Positions 6,615-33,540 of a DNA stretch of 34,534 bases are shown here, piece after piece. How positions within the stretch are numbered: position 1 is the first letter of the stretch; each line of letters opens with the position of its first letter. The stretch lies in assembly GCA_030532785.1 (NCBI GenBank), contig JAUNKJ010000003.1, positions 1 through 34,534 on the forward strand. Direction: 5' to 3'. Below the pieces are notes generated by a model. It made no database searches. It was not told the DNA's origin and saw only the letters and a list, made by a program, of their open reading frames with translations. Source of the DNA: Cardiobacteriaceae bacterium. GTDB taxonomy: Bacteria; Pseudomonadota; Gammaproteobacteria; Cardiobacteriales; Cardiobacteriaceae. A program made the position numbers and the translations under genes.

Positions 6615-7049
6615 ATGTCTGATATGCCCACACCACCAGAAGCAGAAGATTTGATCATTATTGAAAACAATCCTGACTATATAATGTTTTTAGAAAGAAA
6701 AAGCGTTAAAGAAATAGAAATTTCATTAGATAACTCAGAAAAAATAAAAGTCTTGCAAGCCTGGACATTGATTCAAAACAAGGATCCCTATTTTTATGAA
6801 ACCTCTCTTACAACAGAGGAAAAAGAATTGGTATATGAAATCATGGATCTATCTTATTACAACTGTGAAGAGGAAAAAAGCCTTTCCATTATTCAATGGT
6901 ATTACAATGAAAATTCAAAAGTCATTAACTATCTATTCAATGAAGAAAGAGCGTGGGACAGATTCAGTCCTATTACAAAAAACACCGTTGGACACGTATT
7001 ATTTGAAGTTATCAAAAAATCTTATGAAAACAACAAAAAACGTCGTTAA
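6615..7049 (+). CDS. AT-rich orphan protein of unknown function
   Basis: A 144-residue protein without signal peptide or membrane segment. It is acidic in the first half (PPEAEDLIIIENNPDYIMFLE) and has a basic tail (KKSYENNKKRR). I do not recognise it. A strong GGGAGG ribosome site lies six bases before the ATG and supports real translation. Sampled base composition is about 23-30% G+C, against 55-60% in the genes on either side, so it was probably acquired. It is bracketed by hairpin repeats, as expected for inserted cargo. Small, acidic, AT-rich orphans of this kind are often immunity proteins of contact-dependent or type VI toxins, but no toxin gene is visible here and that role is only a guess. 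Confidence 0.75.
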   Translation: MSDMPTPPEAEDLIIIENNPDYIMFLERKSVKEIEISLDNSEKIKVLQAWTLIQNKDPYFYETSLTTEEKELVYEIMDLSYYNCEEEKSLSIIQWYYNENSKVINYLFNEERAWDRFSPITKNTVGHVLFEVIKKSYENNKKRR

Positions 7050-7071
7050 TCATCTATAAGATGGGTAGGTT

Positions 7072-7161
7072 GTAGGCTGGGTTAGTTGCGTAGCAACGTA
7101 ACCCAGCAAAGGCTTCGAATATCGCGCTGGGTTACGCGGCGTTGCCGCTAACCCAGCCTAC
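7072..7161. repeat. Twin-hairpin repeat with GTAGGCTGGGTTA inverted ends
   Basis: A 90-bp unit with perfect 13-bp terminal inverted repeats. Each end is itself a hairpin: GCTGGGTTA-gttgc-gta-gcaac-GTAACCCAGC on the left and GCTGGGTTA..CGCGGCGTTGCCGC..TAACCCAGC on the right. The layout matches BIME/REP doublets. Confidence 0.75.
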
Positions 7162-7214
7162 GAATCTGGGCAATGCCGCACAGAGATGATGATTTGACGC
7201 ATCATTTATTTGAT

Positions 7215-7267
7215 GTCGGCCACAAAGTGGCCGACCTACAGTAACGGTGGGTTGACACCCACCCTAC
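7215..7267. repeat. Two adjacent hairpin repeats
   Basis: GTCGGCCAC-aaa-GTGGCCGAC (7215-7235) is followed by GTAACGGTGGGTTGACACCCACC (7241-7267). The latter type recurs at 9873 and 31074. Confidence 0.7.
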
Positions 7268-7281
7268 GATACCAAGGCAAC

Positions 7282-7372
7282 GTAGGTACGGTTAGGCGCG
7301 TAGCGCCGTAACCGTACATTTTCAAAATATTTTTCTGTACGGTTACGCGCCTTTGGCGCTAACCGTACCTAC
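7282..7372. repeat. Twin-hairpin repeat with GTAGGTACGGTTA inverted ends
   Basis: A 91-bp unit with perfect 13-bp terminal inverted repeats and an inner hairpin in each arm (GGCGCGTAGCGCC; CGCGCCTTTGGCGC). The central spacer is AT-rich. The same element is at 30973-31061 and a partial one at 27008-27043. Confidence 0.8.
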
Positions 7373-7390
7373 AAATCGCTTCGCGATACC

Positions 7391-7415
7391 GCATGGGCTT
7401 ACGCCCATCCTACGG
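7391..7415. repeat. GTAGGATGGGC-type hairpin repeat (inverted copy)
   Basis: GCATGGGCTTACGCCCATCCTACG is the reverse complement of the type at 1108-1130. Confidence 0.7.
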
Positions 7416-7551
7416 CTATGAAAAATCATCAAAACGATTGTCGGTTGGGGCAAAGCATCGCCGTTACCTCAGCAGAGAAAAGCAAACGTAGGATGACGGC
7501 AACGTCGACACACCCTACAAAAACAGCCACAAAACCTCTCTAAAATATCAT
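7416..7551. other. Non-coding stretch, no gene seen
   Basis: I see no supported ORF, RNA gene or promoter. A degenerate repeat (CGTAGGATGACGG..CACCCTAC) lies near 7488-7518. The whole gap of 7050-7637 is otherwise filled by the hairpin repeats listed separately. Confidence 0.5.
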
Positions 7552-7638
7552 CTAAAATAGTGGTTTTTTACCATTGCGAAGCGCTTTTCGTGATAAAATT
7601 TTTCATGGCAAGCGCTTCCTGATGAGAAAAAAACACCA
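7552..7638 (+). repeat. AAGCGCTT palindromic repeat, copy 6
   Basis: Left end TAAAATAGTGGTTTTTTACC, two exact octamers 31 bp apart, and mirrored right end GATGAGAAAAAAACACCAT, whose final AT are the first bases of the next gene's start codon. Confidence 0.85.
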
Positions 7639-8396
7639 TGCTGAAACCCCTGCTTTCTTCTTTGTTCCTCTTCGCCACGGTTGCCCGGGCGCTGGATTTC
7701 ACGCCGCTCGGCGACAGTGCGTTTTACGCCGAGGCGGATTATCAGGGCGTGCGTTACGGCATCGTCAAGGCGCGTCCTGAAAACGTGTCACTGCTGTGGC
7801 GCGATGGCGAAGGCAAGGCGTTGCGCAGTTTGGGCGCGGCGTTTTCCGCAGTGAAGGCCGAGGGCAAGGTGCCGTTGATGCTGATGAATGCCGGGATTTT
7901 CACCACGGCGCATACCCCTGCCGGGCTTTGGGTGGAAAAGGGGGAAACGCTCATCGCGCTCAACCGCAACAAGGGCAGCGGCAATTTTCATATTCAGCCC
8001 AATGGCGTGTTTTCCGTGACCAGGGGCAAGGCGCGGGTGGAGACGACGGCGGCATTCGCCAAGCGCCAGGCGCGTGTCGATTACGCAGTGCAGTCCGGGC
8101 CGATGTTGTTGATTGACGGCAAGATCAATTCGCGTTTCGTGAAAAATCTGTCGAGCCCCTACAAGCGCAATGCGGTGTGCACCACGAAAAAGGGCGAGCT
8201 GCTCTTTCTGATGACGCTGAGTTATGACGTTGAATGGCCGAGTTTTTATCGCCTTGCCGAGGCGCTTTCTTCCTTCGGCTGCCATAACGCCCTTTATCTC
8301 GACGGCAGCATTTCCGACTGGTTCGTCAAGGGCAAAAGTGGTACGTTTCACTGGTCGAATTTTGTCGGCATCATTGCCGTTGCGGAGCGCCCATGA
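7638..8396 (+). CDS. Secreted phosphodiester glycosidase-like (NAGPA/DUF2233) protein
   Basis: A 252-residue protein with a signal peptide (MLKPLLSSLFLFATVARA), so it is exported. The body matches the phosphodiester glycosidase (NAGPA) family: LMLMNAGIFTTAHTPAGLWVEKG, the FHIQPNGVFSV block, VQSGPMLLIDGKIN and the closing YLDGSISDWFVKG. Family members hydrolyse sugar phosphodiesters, but the bacterial substrates are mostly unknown. The ATG coincides with the right end of an AAGCGCTT repeat, so the 5' untranslated region is that repeat; no clear ribosome site is seen. The stop overlaps the ATG of the Ppx/GppA gene by four bases (ATGA), which indicates one operon and possibly a shared role in phosphate metabolism. 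Confidence 0.85.
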   Translation: MLKPLLSSLFLFATVARALDFTPLGDSAFYAEADYQGVRYGIVKARPENVSLLWRDGEGKALRSLGAAFSAVKAEGKVPLMLMNAGIFTTAHTPAGLWVEKGETLIALNRNKGSGNFHIQPNGVFSVTRGKARVETTAAFAKRQARVDYAVQSGPMLLIDGKINSRFVKNLSSPYKRNAVCTTKKGELLFLMTLSYDVEWPSFYRLAEALSSFGCHNALYLDGSISDWFVKGKSGTFHWSNFVGIIAVAERP

Positions 8397-26947: not shown

Positions 26948-27073
26948 CGTAGGGTGGGCTTCAGCCCACCGTCGCGCAGCGATTGTAGGTAAAAATATTT
27001 TGCCAATGTACGGTTACGGCGCTGCGCGCCTAACCGTACCTACGTTGGCGGCGGGTTGCCGCCCACCTTACGC
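26948..27073. repeat. Cluster of three hairpin repeats
   Basis: GTAGGGTGGGCTTCAGCCCACC (26948-26970), then one arm of the GTACGGTTA twin-hairpin element with its outer end TAACCGTACCTAC (27008-27043), then GGCGGGTTGCCGCCCACC (27049-27067). The partner arm at 26984 is reduced to GTAGGTAAAAATATTTT. Confidence 0.7.
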
Positions 27074-30118: not shown

Positions 30119-30871
30119 TCAGTAAACCACTTTTTTGCCGTAGCTTTCGATGATGTCGCGGATGGCGTGTACCGTTTCCTTGGGCGGGGGGTGGACGCCC
30201 GCGAGTTGGTAGGTGTCGCCAGAGAGCGCCCATTTGTGCGCGCCGAGTTCGTGGTAGGGGAGGAGTTCGACGTCTTGCACGTTGTCCATGGGGGCGATGA
30301 ATTGCCCGAGGCGGTGCGCGGAGTCGGGGTCGTCGCTGTAGCCGGGGACGATGACGTAGCGCACGCGCGTTGTCTGGCCGCGTGCGGCGAGGTATTCGGC
30401 AAAGCGCAGGGTGCGGGTGTTGGGGACGCCGACGAGGGTTTTGTGGATGTCGGGGTTGAGTTGCTTGAGGTCGAGCATGACGAGGTCGGTGTGGTCGAGC
30501 AGTTCGTCAAGGGTTTTCGTGTATTGGCGCGCGTAGCCGTTGGTGTCGAGGCAGGTGTGGATGCCGTAGGCTTTGCAGGCGGCAAACCAGTCGCGCACGA
30601 ATTCGGCTTGCAGCAGGGGTTCGCCGCCCGATGCGGTGACGCCGCCGCCGCTGGCCTTGAAGTAGAAGCGGTAGGAGATGACTTTTTGCATGAGGTCGTC
30701 GACGGTGACTTCTTGCGATTTGTCGGTTTTCATGTCCCAGGTGTCGCGGTTGTGGCAGTAGAGGCAGCGCATGAGGCAGCCTTGCAGGAAGGCGACAAAG
30801 CGGATGCCGGGGCCGTCAACGGTGCCGCCGGTTTCGAGGGAGTGGATGATGCCGGTGGTTTTTTGTTTCAT
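30119..30871 (-). CDS. pflA: Pyruvate formate-lyase activating enzyme (radical SAM)
   Basis: A 250-residue radical-SAM enzyme that creates the glycyl radical of pyruvate formate-lyase. The opening [25 protein letters not shown] leads into the cluster motif CLMRCLYC (Cys-x3-Cys-x2-Cys) and [27 protein letters not shown] and [10 protein letters not shown] are typical of PflA. The length matches E. coli PflA (246). It lies downstream of pflB on the same strand, but a terminator and a 386-bp block of repeats separate them, so it needs its own promoter or read-through. The ATG at 30871 has only a weak ribosome site. Confidence 0.96.
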
Positions 30872-30972: not shown

Positions 30973-31061
30973 GTAGGTACGGTTAGCGCCAAAGGCGCGT
31001 AACCGTACAAAATGTAATTAAAAATGTACGGTTACGGCGCTGTGCGCCTAACCGTACCTAC
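30973..31061. repeat. Twin-hairpin repeat with GTAGGTACGGTTA inverted ends
   Basis: An 89-bp unit with perfect 13-bp terminal inverted repeats, the same element as at 7282-7372. The inner hairpins are GCGCCAAAGGCGC and GGCGCTGTGCGCC, and the spacer is AT-rich. Confidence 0.82.
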
Positions 31062-31073
31062 AAGCGCTTCGCG

Positions 31074-31126
31074 CCGGTGGGTTGACACCCACCCTACCAA
31101 ACGGTGGGCTGAAGCCCACCCTACGG
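31074..31126. repeat. Two GGTGGG-type hairpin repeats
   Basis: GGTGGGTTGACACCCACC followed by GGTGGGCTGAAGCCCACC and CTACGG. These are the unit types seen at 7241 and 26948, placed side by side. Confidence 0.7.
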
Positions 31127-31257: not shown

Positions 31258-33540
31258 TTACATGGTTTCCGTGAAGGTTCGGGTGATGACGTCCATTTGC
31301 TGCTCTTTGGTGAGCGAGTTGAAGCGCACGGCGTAGCCGGAGACGCGGATGGTGAGCTGTGGGTACAGTTCCGGGTCGTTCATGGCTTCGACGAGCATTT
31401 CGCGGTTGAGGACGTTGACGTTCAGGTGTTGGCCGCCTTCAAAGTCGCCGTCGTGGTGGAAGTAGCCGTCCATGAGGCCGGCGAGGTTGGCCTGGCGGGT
31501 GGCGTCGTCTTTGCCGAGGGCGCCGGGGATGATGGAGAAGGTGTAGGAGATGCCGTCTTTGGCGTAGGCAAAGGGCAGTTTGGCGACCGAGCTTAACGAG
31601 GCGACGGCGCCGTTGACGTCGCGGCCGTGCATGGGGTTGGCACCGGGGCCAAAGGGTGCGCCGGCGCGGCGGCCGTCCGGGGTGTTGCCGGTTTTCTTGC
31701 CGTAGACGACGTTGGAGGTGATGGTGAGGACCGATTGCGTCGGGGTGGCGTTGCGGTAGGTGGGGTGGGTCGCGACTTTTTTCATGAAGCGTTCCACGAG
31801 GTCGCAGGCGATTTGGTCGACGCGGTCGTCGTTGTTGCCGAATTGCGGGTATTCGCCTTCGATTTCAAAGTCGATGGCAATGCCGTTTTCGTCGCGTACC
31901 GGGCGTACTTTGGCGTATTTGATGGCGGAGAGGGAGTCGGCGGCAACCGAAAGTCCGGCGATGCCGCAGGCCATGGTGCGGTGTACGTCGCGGTCATGCA
32001 GTGCCATGAGCGCTGCTTCGTAGCTGTATTTGTCGTGCATGTAGTGGATGCAGTTCAAGGCGGTGACGTATTGGGTGGCGAGCCAGTCCATGAAGCTGTC
32101 CATGCGCTTCATCACGGTGTCGTAGTCGAGGATTTCGTCGGCAATCGGTGCTTCTTTGGGGCCGACCTGTTCCTTGGATTTTTCATCGACGCCGCCGTTG
32201 ATGGCGTAGAGCAGGGTTTTCGCGAGGTTGGCGCGCGCGCCGAAGAATTGCATGTGTTTGCCGACGACCATGGGGCTGACGCAGCAGGCGATGGCGTAGT
32301 CGTCGCTGTCGAAGTCGGGGCGCATGAGGTCGTCGTTTTCGTATTGCACGGAGGAGGTGTCGATGGAGACTTTGGCGCAGAAGTGTTTGAAGGCTTGCGG
32401 CAGTTGCTCCGACCAGAGGATGGTCATGTTCGGCTCGGGCGAGGGGCCCATGTTGTAGAGGGTGTGCATGAAGCGGAAGCTGGTTTTGGTGACGAGTGTT
32501 CTGCCATCGAGACCCATGCCGCCGATGGATTCGGTCGCCCAGATGGGGTCGCCGGAGAAGAGCTGGTCGTATTCCGGGGTGCGCAGGAAGCGCACCATGC
32601 GCAGTTTCATGACGAGGTGGTCGATCATTTCCTGCGCTTCGCTTTCGCTGATGACGCCGTTTTTGAGATCGCGTTCGAGGTAGATGTCGAGGAAGGTGGA
32701 GACGCGGCCAAAGCTCATCGCCGCGCCGTTTTGCGATTTGACGGCGGCGAGATAGGCGAAATATGTCCATTGCACCGCTTCGCGCGCGGTTTTCGCCGGT
32801 TGCGAGATGTCGAAGCCGTAGCTCGCGGCCATTTCTTTCATTTGGCCAAGCGCTTTGTGTTGCTCGACGATTTCTTCGCGCAGGCGGATGGTGGCTTCCA
32901 AATCTTTGCCCGCTTCGAGGTCGGCTTGCAGGGAGTTGAATTGCGCGACTTTGTCGGCCATCAGGCGGTCAATGCCGTAGAGGGCGACACGGCGGTAATC
33001 GCCGATGATGCGGCCACGGCCGTAGGCATCGGGCAGACCGGTCAAGACGCCGGATTTGCGGCAGCGGCGGATGTCGGGGGTGTAGACGTCGAATACGCCC
33101 TGGTTGTGGGTTTTGCGGTATTCGGAGAAGATTTTTTCAACGTCCGGGTTCAGCGGGGTGTCGTAGATTTTGCAGGAATCCATGACCATTTTCAGGCCGC
33201 CAAAGGGCATGATGGCGCGCTTCAGCGGTTCGTCGGTTTGCAGGCCGACGATGGTTTCCAGGTCTTTGTCGATGTAACCGGCGGCGTGGCTGGTGATGCT
33301 GGAAACGATTTGTGAATCAATCTTGTAGGGGGCTTTGGTGCGGTTTTCGACCTTGATGCCTTCCATCACTTCGTCCCACAGTTTCGTGGTCGCCTTGGTC
33401 GCAGGTGCCAGGAATTCATCACCGCCTTCGTAGGGGGTGTAGTTTTTCTGGATGAAGTCGCGCACGTCGATGGTGGTTTCCCAGTCGCCGGCGATGAAGT
33501 CGCGCCAGGCGTCGGGGCGGGTGTCGGTTTTGGTCAGCAT
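31258..33540 (-). CDS. pflB: Formate C-acetyltransferase (pyruvate formate-lyase)
   Basis: A 760-residue glycyl-radical enzyme that splits pyruvate with CoA into acetyl-CoA and formate during anaerobic growth. The adjacent active-site cysteines are in [15 protein letters not shown] and the radical glycine is in [12 protein letters not shown] (Gly735, 26 residues from the end), as in E. coli PflB (759 residues). The N-terminus [28 protein letters not shown] is typical. The AGGAGA site is eight bases before the ATG. The formate channel gene focA is not adjacent; mtnN lies upstream, 181 bp away on the same strand. I see no clear FNR box in that gap. Confidence 0.98.

Follow-up and report, generated by a model that had tools for sequence, protein, structure and literature searches.

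The window analysed here is a stretch of 34,534 nucleotides from a Cardiobacteriaceae bacterium (contig JAUNKJ010000003.1). One of its intergenic clusters contains two elements that sequence inspection identified as head-to-head pairs of GTAG-tagged palindromes: a type-1 pair at 7072-7161, with the 13-bp inverted ends GTAGGCTGGGTTA/TAACCCAGCCTAC, and a type-2 pair at 7282-7372, with the 13-bp inverted ends GTAGGTACGGTTA/TAACCGTACCTAC. Each arm runs in the order GTAG, 9-bp lower stem, short upper stem and loop, with a bulged G on the 3' side, and because of this one unpaired G per arm the palindromes are imperfect. An earlier note on this DNA had described 13-bp inverted ends and a hairpin in each arm for both elements, which matches the sequence and is refined by the bulged G. 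It had also reported that the second type recurs: indeed, there is a full copy at 30973-31061, and the partial copy at 27008-27043 is part of an element at 26985-27043 whose left arm has been deleted. An Rfam search of the window gave no matches at the gathering score. We very probably deal here with REP doublets (BIMEs/REPINs) of two sibling families, belonging to the group-2 (E. coli-like) REP/RAYT kind, and the features are listed under this reading:

7072-7161, no strand assigned: type-1 REP doublet (REPIN/BIME), from sequence and fold; its spacer has the polar type-1 form CAAA...CGCG
7072-7107, plus strand: type-1 left arm REP with GTAG, 9-bp lower stem, upper stem GTTGC/GCAAC and bulged G, from the fold of 7072-7108
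7126-7161, minus strand: type-1 right arm REP with the same lower stem, upper stem GCGGC/GCCGC and bulged G, from sequence
7215-7239, minus strand: single GTAG-tagged hairpin in the intergenic cluster of the two doublets, with a different type of stem, GTAG-GTCGGCCAC-TTT-GTGGCCGAC, from sequence
7246-7267, minus strand: single GTAG-tagged hairpin, GTAG-GGTGGGT-GTC-AACCCACC, from sequence
7282-7372, no strand assigned: type-2 REP doublet, from sequence and fold
7282-7317, plus strand: type-2 left arm REP, upper stem GGCGC/GCGCC, from an arm pattern match
7337-7372, minus strand: type-2 right arm REP, upper stem GCGCC/GGCGC, from a pattern match and its own single-arm fold
7392-7413, minus strand: single GTAG-tagged hairpin, GTAG-GATGGGC-GTAA-GCCCAT, from sequence
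26985-27043, no strand assigned: type-2 doublet with the left hairpin deleted, consisting of a GTAGGTA stub, the spacer and an intact right REP (27008-27043), from sequence and fold
30973-31061, no strand assigned: second complete type-2 doublet, from a pattern match and fold, between ORFs 30119-30871 (250 codons) and 31258-33540 (760 codons), read as a putative pyruvate formate-lyase activase and a putative pyruvate formate-lyase

Folded as single-stranded DNA, one arm of each type (n = 2) left GTAG free at the foot of a 9-bp lower stem; a single unpaired G on the 3' side separates this stem from an upper stem of 5 bp, which is closed by a loop of 3 nt. The 90-nt unit has an alternative, cross-like single-stranded fold in which the outer 13-bp repeat is closed. 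Whole-element folds of single-stranded DNA had z-scores of -6.7, -7.5, -7.5 and -8.4, with none of 200 shuffles as good; these four folds represent three elements, one of them folded on both strands.

The host assembly comprises 2.07 Mb in 206 contigs and is 78% complete; the window is its contig C178. Strict arm patterns matched 116 times for type 1 and 58 times for type 2 genome-wide, and never in a backward-read control, and the loose head GTAGGNNNGGTTA gave 210 matches versus 13 in the control. The copies were catalogued, as the earlier note had proposed, in 97 stretches plus the window (266,147 bases), with type-1 places taken from the first 100 of the 116 matches plus any beyond these that other lists supplied. 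An arm was called where GTAGGNNNGGTTA, with no more than one change, was followed by a TAACCNNN that matched it, and removal of overlapping opposite-strand calls reduced 193 arms to 190. The catalogue thus holds 190 arms in 266 kb of the host genome, in two families: 114 arms of type 1 and 76 of type 2, the latter including six with the triplet variants TGC, CAC or TAT; one of the 190 (L131) matches poorly and may not be genuine. Conservation of the outer stem is partly built in by the seeding, with the inner part unconstrained. Accordingly, GTAG is to be read as seeded with one change allowed: all four of its positions are unchanged in every one of the 114 type-1 arms, and each is kept in 73-76 of the 76 type-2 arms. 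The two families are separated by the triplet at lower-stem positions 6-8, which is CTG in type 1 and TAC in type 2, and position 11 (E. coli numbering) is T in all 190 arms, the seed having allowed one change per head. Position 7 (E. coli numbering), probably the partner of G32, lies in this triplet.

In 186 of 190 arms the inner part has the form G...CG, so that a single G stays unpaired. Its length is mostly 8-14 nt, corresponding to upper stems of about 2 to 5 pairs. The earlier note had expected that stems vary while pairing is kept and had suggested a search for compensatory changes, and this expectation was borne out. Among the arms whose inner segment is 14 nt long (n = 114), the four variable upper-stem positions formed standard pairs in 98.9% of cases; with the 3' halves shuffled (5000 shuffles), the mean was 61.8% and no shuffle exceeded 70.2%. 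Since related copies are not independent, the fairer figure is that for the 37 distinct 14-nt segments: 96.6% paired versus a shuffled mean of 59.6% and maximum of 75%. Changes had occurred on both sides at all four variable pairs. Three type-2 arms (L009:1916-1978, L009:2174-2232 and L176:1628-1681) have an inner part of 34-35 nt with GGTTCGACAGGCTCACCAACC, a different repeat that sits in their hairpin loop.

Most arms occur in pairs: 112 of the 190 sit in 56 head-to-head doublets with a spacer of 16-24 nt. Of the other neighbours less than 60 bases apart, three pairs stood in tandem and one was tail-to-tail. No doublet was of mixed type (0 of 56; 10,000 label shuffles gave a mean of 22.2 and a minimum of 10), and neighbours of different type within 300 bases were found in 12 cases. 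Type-1 doublets are polar, with the spacer CAAA...CGCG. Among the 39 that could be oriented (two ambiguous ones were excluded), the shorter inner segment lay on the CAAA side in 29, the segments were equal in 3 and the order was reversed in 7. In type 2, a GGCGC-type arm was joined to a GCGCC-type arm in 9 of 15 doublets, counted manually. The two arms of a doublet never shared the same upper stem, neither in type 1 (0 of 41 versus 6.1 expected, P 0.0004) nor in type 2 (0 of 15 versus 3.8 expected, P 0.007); for the identical full inner sequence, avoidance between doublet arms was not significant (P 0.13 and 0.48). By gene calls from a small codon model, which are crude and miss some genes, none of the 56 doublets lay within a called gene. 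Of 52 classified gaps containing doublets, 31 were tandem, 21 convergent and none divergent, with 4 more unclassified; the same calling in the window gave 15 tandem, 4 convergent and 3 divergent gene pairs.

The earlier note had connected such elements with a RAYT transposase and proposed to look for its gene. Profile searches with PF01797 and NF047646 found one such gene in the assembly, outside the window at C53:15521-16042 on the minus strand and beside a cluster of type-2 REPs. NF047646 was added because PF01797 scores this protein weakly (30 bits); the NF047646 score was 206 bits at a cut-off of 80. The nearest solved structure was E. coli TnpA-REP (4er8, E 2.9e-53 over its length), and the alignment to it shows that the HMH motif, the tyrosine (DYI..NP) and the C-terminal GE are all kept. 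In the E. coli enzyme, G160 and E161 contact GTAG, according to the part of PMC8266576 used here. The bulge-contacting K82 of that enzyme corresponds to a serine in the host RAYT; residue numbers were counted by hand on the alignment, and K82 is not established as a defining feature. Five heads of type 2 or of the TGC/CAC variants (triplets TAC, TGC and CAC) lie within about 750 bp 5' of the RAYT gene, the first about 30 bases before the presumed start ATG. On the other side of the gene, the closest type-1 head is at a distance of about 1.6 kb (C53:13928). Thus type 1, the larger family, has no REP close to the RAYT, and a second RAYT was not found in the 78%-complete assembly; since the assembly is incomplete, such a gene may be absent from it. 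At L009:2370-2560 on C53, a MITE-like insert of roughly 190 bp, with GGGGCTGTTGACAATTC-like ends, interrupts a type-2 REP near the RAYT.

We compared the sites with those of related genomes. The 30973-31061 doublet is absent from the orthologous gap, between the same two genes, in G001, a genome of the same genus, and in G004. In G001, the flanks are 86% and 90% identical, and the gap carries another insert, similar to the MITE-like insert near the RAYT, plus an 11-nt string, TACAAAATGTA; since this string resembles the doublet spacer, the doublet may have been lost in G001. In G004, only about 100 bases separate the two genes. A third comparison, with G009, was dropped because the two genes are apart there and only one flank matches, as was a comparison of the 7072/7282 region with G001, where the left neighbour gene differs. 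Within the host, a paralogous empty site for the doublet at L176:2077 was found in L187, with 93% identity over 89 bp across the junction and no target duplication. This is the only such case we rely on: 12 query/subject pairs were viewed of 109 junction-spanning hits, many of which were redundant or in repeats. Since both sites lie in repeat-rich DNA, the empty site could reflect recombination.

In G001, the closest relative of the RAYT is a broken remnant (C7) with an internal stop and missing pieces, and the stretch around it contains no GGTTA-type REP head. Two further genes of G001 are a distant RAYT relative (33% identity) and one of the IS200 type. A region of this genome (C31) that had been suspected to be a REPtron scar was rejected since no RAYT piece was found there. 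The arm architecture matched 27 times in G001 versus 195 times in the host, a few of these matches being one palindrome counted on both strands. Few arms with a broken RAYT in G001, against many arms with a RAYT in the host, is only suggestive, since just two genomes are compared. Across 369 genomes of the same class, the architecture GTAGGNNNGGTTAG...CGTAACC was present in 46, the host having the most matches (186) and the next genome 33, and a backward control gave a single match each in two genomes. Triplets listed for the other genomes were GCG, GTG, TTG and TCG, among others, beside a GGTTA/TAACC core that is fixed by the pattern. At 20 RAYT-like loci, some of which are weak RAYT relatives, we scanned for perfect GTAG palindromes with a stem of at least 8 pairs: 13 loci had at least one and 7 had none, in a scan that misses bulged REPs (one is reported at L009). 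The flanks of 8 of the 20 loci were read by eye.

Other repeats were seen alongside these elements. GTAG-tagged heads with other stems are numerous in the 266 kb (8 with GTCGGCCA, 35 with GGTGGGT, 28 with GATGGG and 59 with GGTGGGC), and in the window they lie at 7215-7267, 7392-7413, 26949 and 31097-31124. The RAYT-like genes of G004 and G009 have GGTGGGGC, GGTGGGCC or GGTGGGCT versions nearby, so that several REP families may coexist in the host. Upstream of a RAYT in G004 (L088:1038-1410) there are seven tandem units, 62 bp apart, of the form GTAG-GGTGGGGC-TT-GCCCCACC. The window also contains 41 AAGCGCTT octamers (0.5 expected), with 16 adjacent pairs 30-32 apart, e.g. 1044/1075, 3914/3945, 7579/7610, 11488/11519, 30907/30938 and 34471/34502. 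The underlying element is AT-rich, flanked by TGAGAAA/TTTCTCA, and contains two octamers spaced about 31 bp apart; by eye, it often directly precedes the start of an ORF. A further 249 octamers were counted in the other 231 kb of host sequence. All 7 pieces of G001 (some overlapping) contain the octamer, but none of the 6 pieces from G004 and G009 does. The element has the appearance of a promoter-side element specific to the genus.

What the doublets are can be read in other ways. They might be host regulatory or structural elements, such as terminators, mRNA-end stabilisers or protein-binding sites, that are not mobile now. Their restriction to intergenic tandem or convergent gaps, where mRNA 3' ends lie, agrees with this, as do the roles in supercoiling, termination and mRNA stability that have been hypothesised for REPs and the several proteins that BIMEs are said to bind (in the parts of PMC3733652 and PMC2817692 used here). 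However, in the one region inspected (6900-7700) no terminator-like site was found, with 1.3 expected from shuffles, and a host element does not predict doublets of pure family, an adjacent RAYT or absence from the same site in relatives. We therefore consider it unlikely that the doublets are host elements instead of mobile ones, although they may have a host role in addition to mobility. Their length of about 90 bp and the 13-bp inverted ends would also suit MITEs of an ordinary (DDE) insertion sequence, and the genome does contain other MITE-like inserts, one of them inside the type-2 REP at L009. Yet each arm is itself a REP-like, GTAG-tagged bulged hairpin, a RAYT adjoins type 2, and the best empty site, a single one in repeat-rich DNA, lacks a target duplication, so that an origin from such an insertion sequence seems highly improbable.

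A different objection concerns the pairing of the upper stems, which could be maintained by a mutational process, either template switching in the palindrome or conversion between copies, and not by selection on structure. The upper stems do fall into a limited set of types, and the inner segments GCCCGAAGGGCG, GGTGCGCAGCACCG and GCGCGCAGCGCG are common to both families, as exchange between copies would give. Template switching, however, should erase the bulge, which is preserved in all but four arms, and exchange should sometimes produce doublets with alike arms, of which there were none among the 56. We regard a purely mutational origin of the pairing as quite improbable.

The reading as REP doublets, which the earlier note had put forward, is thus supported by both lines of evidence that it had named, covariation in the stems and the presence of a RAYT gene. 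By analogy with known systems, each GTAG arm would form a hairpin with the 9-bp lower stem and the bulged G when the DNA is single-stranded, e.g. in the lagging-strand template. The RAYT (TnpA-REP, a Y1 HUH nuclease) would bind GTAG, the lower stem and the bulge, and would cut and join single strands, and the whole doublet would thereby reach new intergenic sites, by moving or by being copied, with no duplication of the target. Of the upper stem, pairing alone would be required. Which RAYT serves which family is plausibly set by the three lower-stem pairs in which the families differ (CTG versus TAC); this triplet appears to include a pair with which the E. coli enzyme makes a specific contact, and so it may act as a specificity code. 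We tentatively propose that lower-stem pairs 6-8 are such a RAYT code, that both families arose from one element by divergence of its copies and no longer have an enzyme, or its efficient action, in common, and that unlike upper stems are obligatory within a doublet; we consider this proposal somewhat less likely than not.

REP doublets and RAYTs have been described before (PMC2817692, PMC3116915, PMC8266576 and PMC3733652, each used here in part); what appears to be new are the two families themselves. We found no published account of these families or of their stem strings in the open literature, where the stem strings matched only unrelated aptamer work, and earlier publication of the stem elsewhere is possible. 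REPs are widespread bacterial repeats, and discrimination by the enzymes between REP families has been tested in few systems, three of them in depth according to the part of PMC8266576 used here. With about 190 arms from two sibling families, this one genome offers a natural mutagenesis experiment, which points to one triplet as the family label.

Several known systems resemble the elements described here. Members of the IS200/IS605 family insert without duplication, as the elements here seem to do. They also resemble our elements in relying on a Y1 HUH transposase and in having subterminal hairpins in which some bases are unpaired (PMC8266576, as far as its text was used), but the elements here carry a GTAG tag and have no transposase gene between their ends, so that the enzyme would act from elsewhere. 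The GTAG REP families of Di Nocera and others share the GTAG end, the complementary stem changes, the predominance of head-head dimers and the REPtron organisation (PMC3733652, in part); a search for our stem strings and for Cardiobacterium gave no matches in the text of that paper, the 24 consensus sequences of its Figure 1 lying outside this comparison. The REPINs GI-GIII of Pseudomonas fluorescens SBW25 are likewise dispersed units of an inverted REP doublet with a short spacer, with several families per genome and reported compensatory hairpin changes (PMC3116915, in part). In contrast to them, the doublets here are polar and have unlike arms, and whereas group-3 REPs (mainly Pseudomonas) are short and generally perfect palindromes, the arms here are long and bulged (PMC8266576, in part).

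The closest parallel is offered by the E. coli REP/BIME elements (y, z1 and z2) and their group-2 TnpA-REP, again as described in the part of PMC8266576 used here. Both systems have a GTAG tag, a long imperfect hairpin with an unpaired zone between the stems, an upper stem that is free in sequence, and an enzyme with the same C-terminal GE; E. coli BIMEs also join unlike REPs (y with z1 or z2), as unlike arms are joined here. The E. coli enzyme needs the bulge, an upper stem of any sequence, and T11 and G32 in the lower stem (PMC8266576). The variation of the arms here agrees with this rule: lower stem and bulge are kept, and the upper stem is free but paired. The unpaired zone, however, is a single G on the 3' side here and an AA/GC mismatch in E. 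coli, the lower-stem sequence differs, and the equivalent of K82 is a serine (PMC8266576, in part). Unlike in E. coli, two lower-stem families stand here in one genome beside one detected RAYT.
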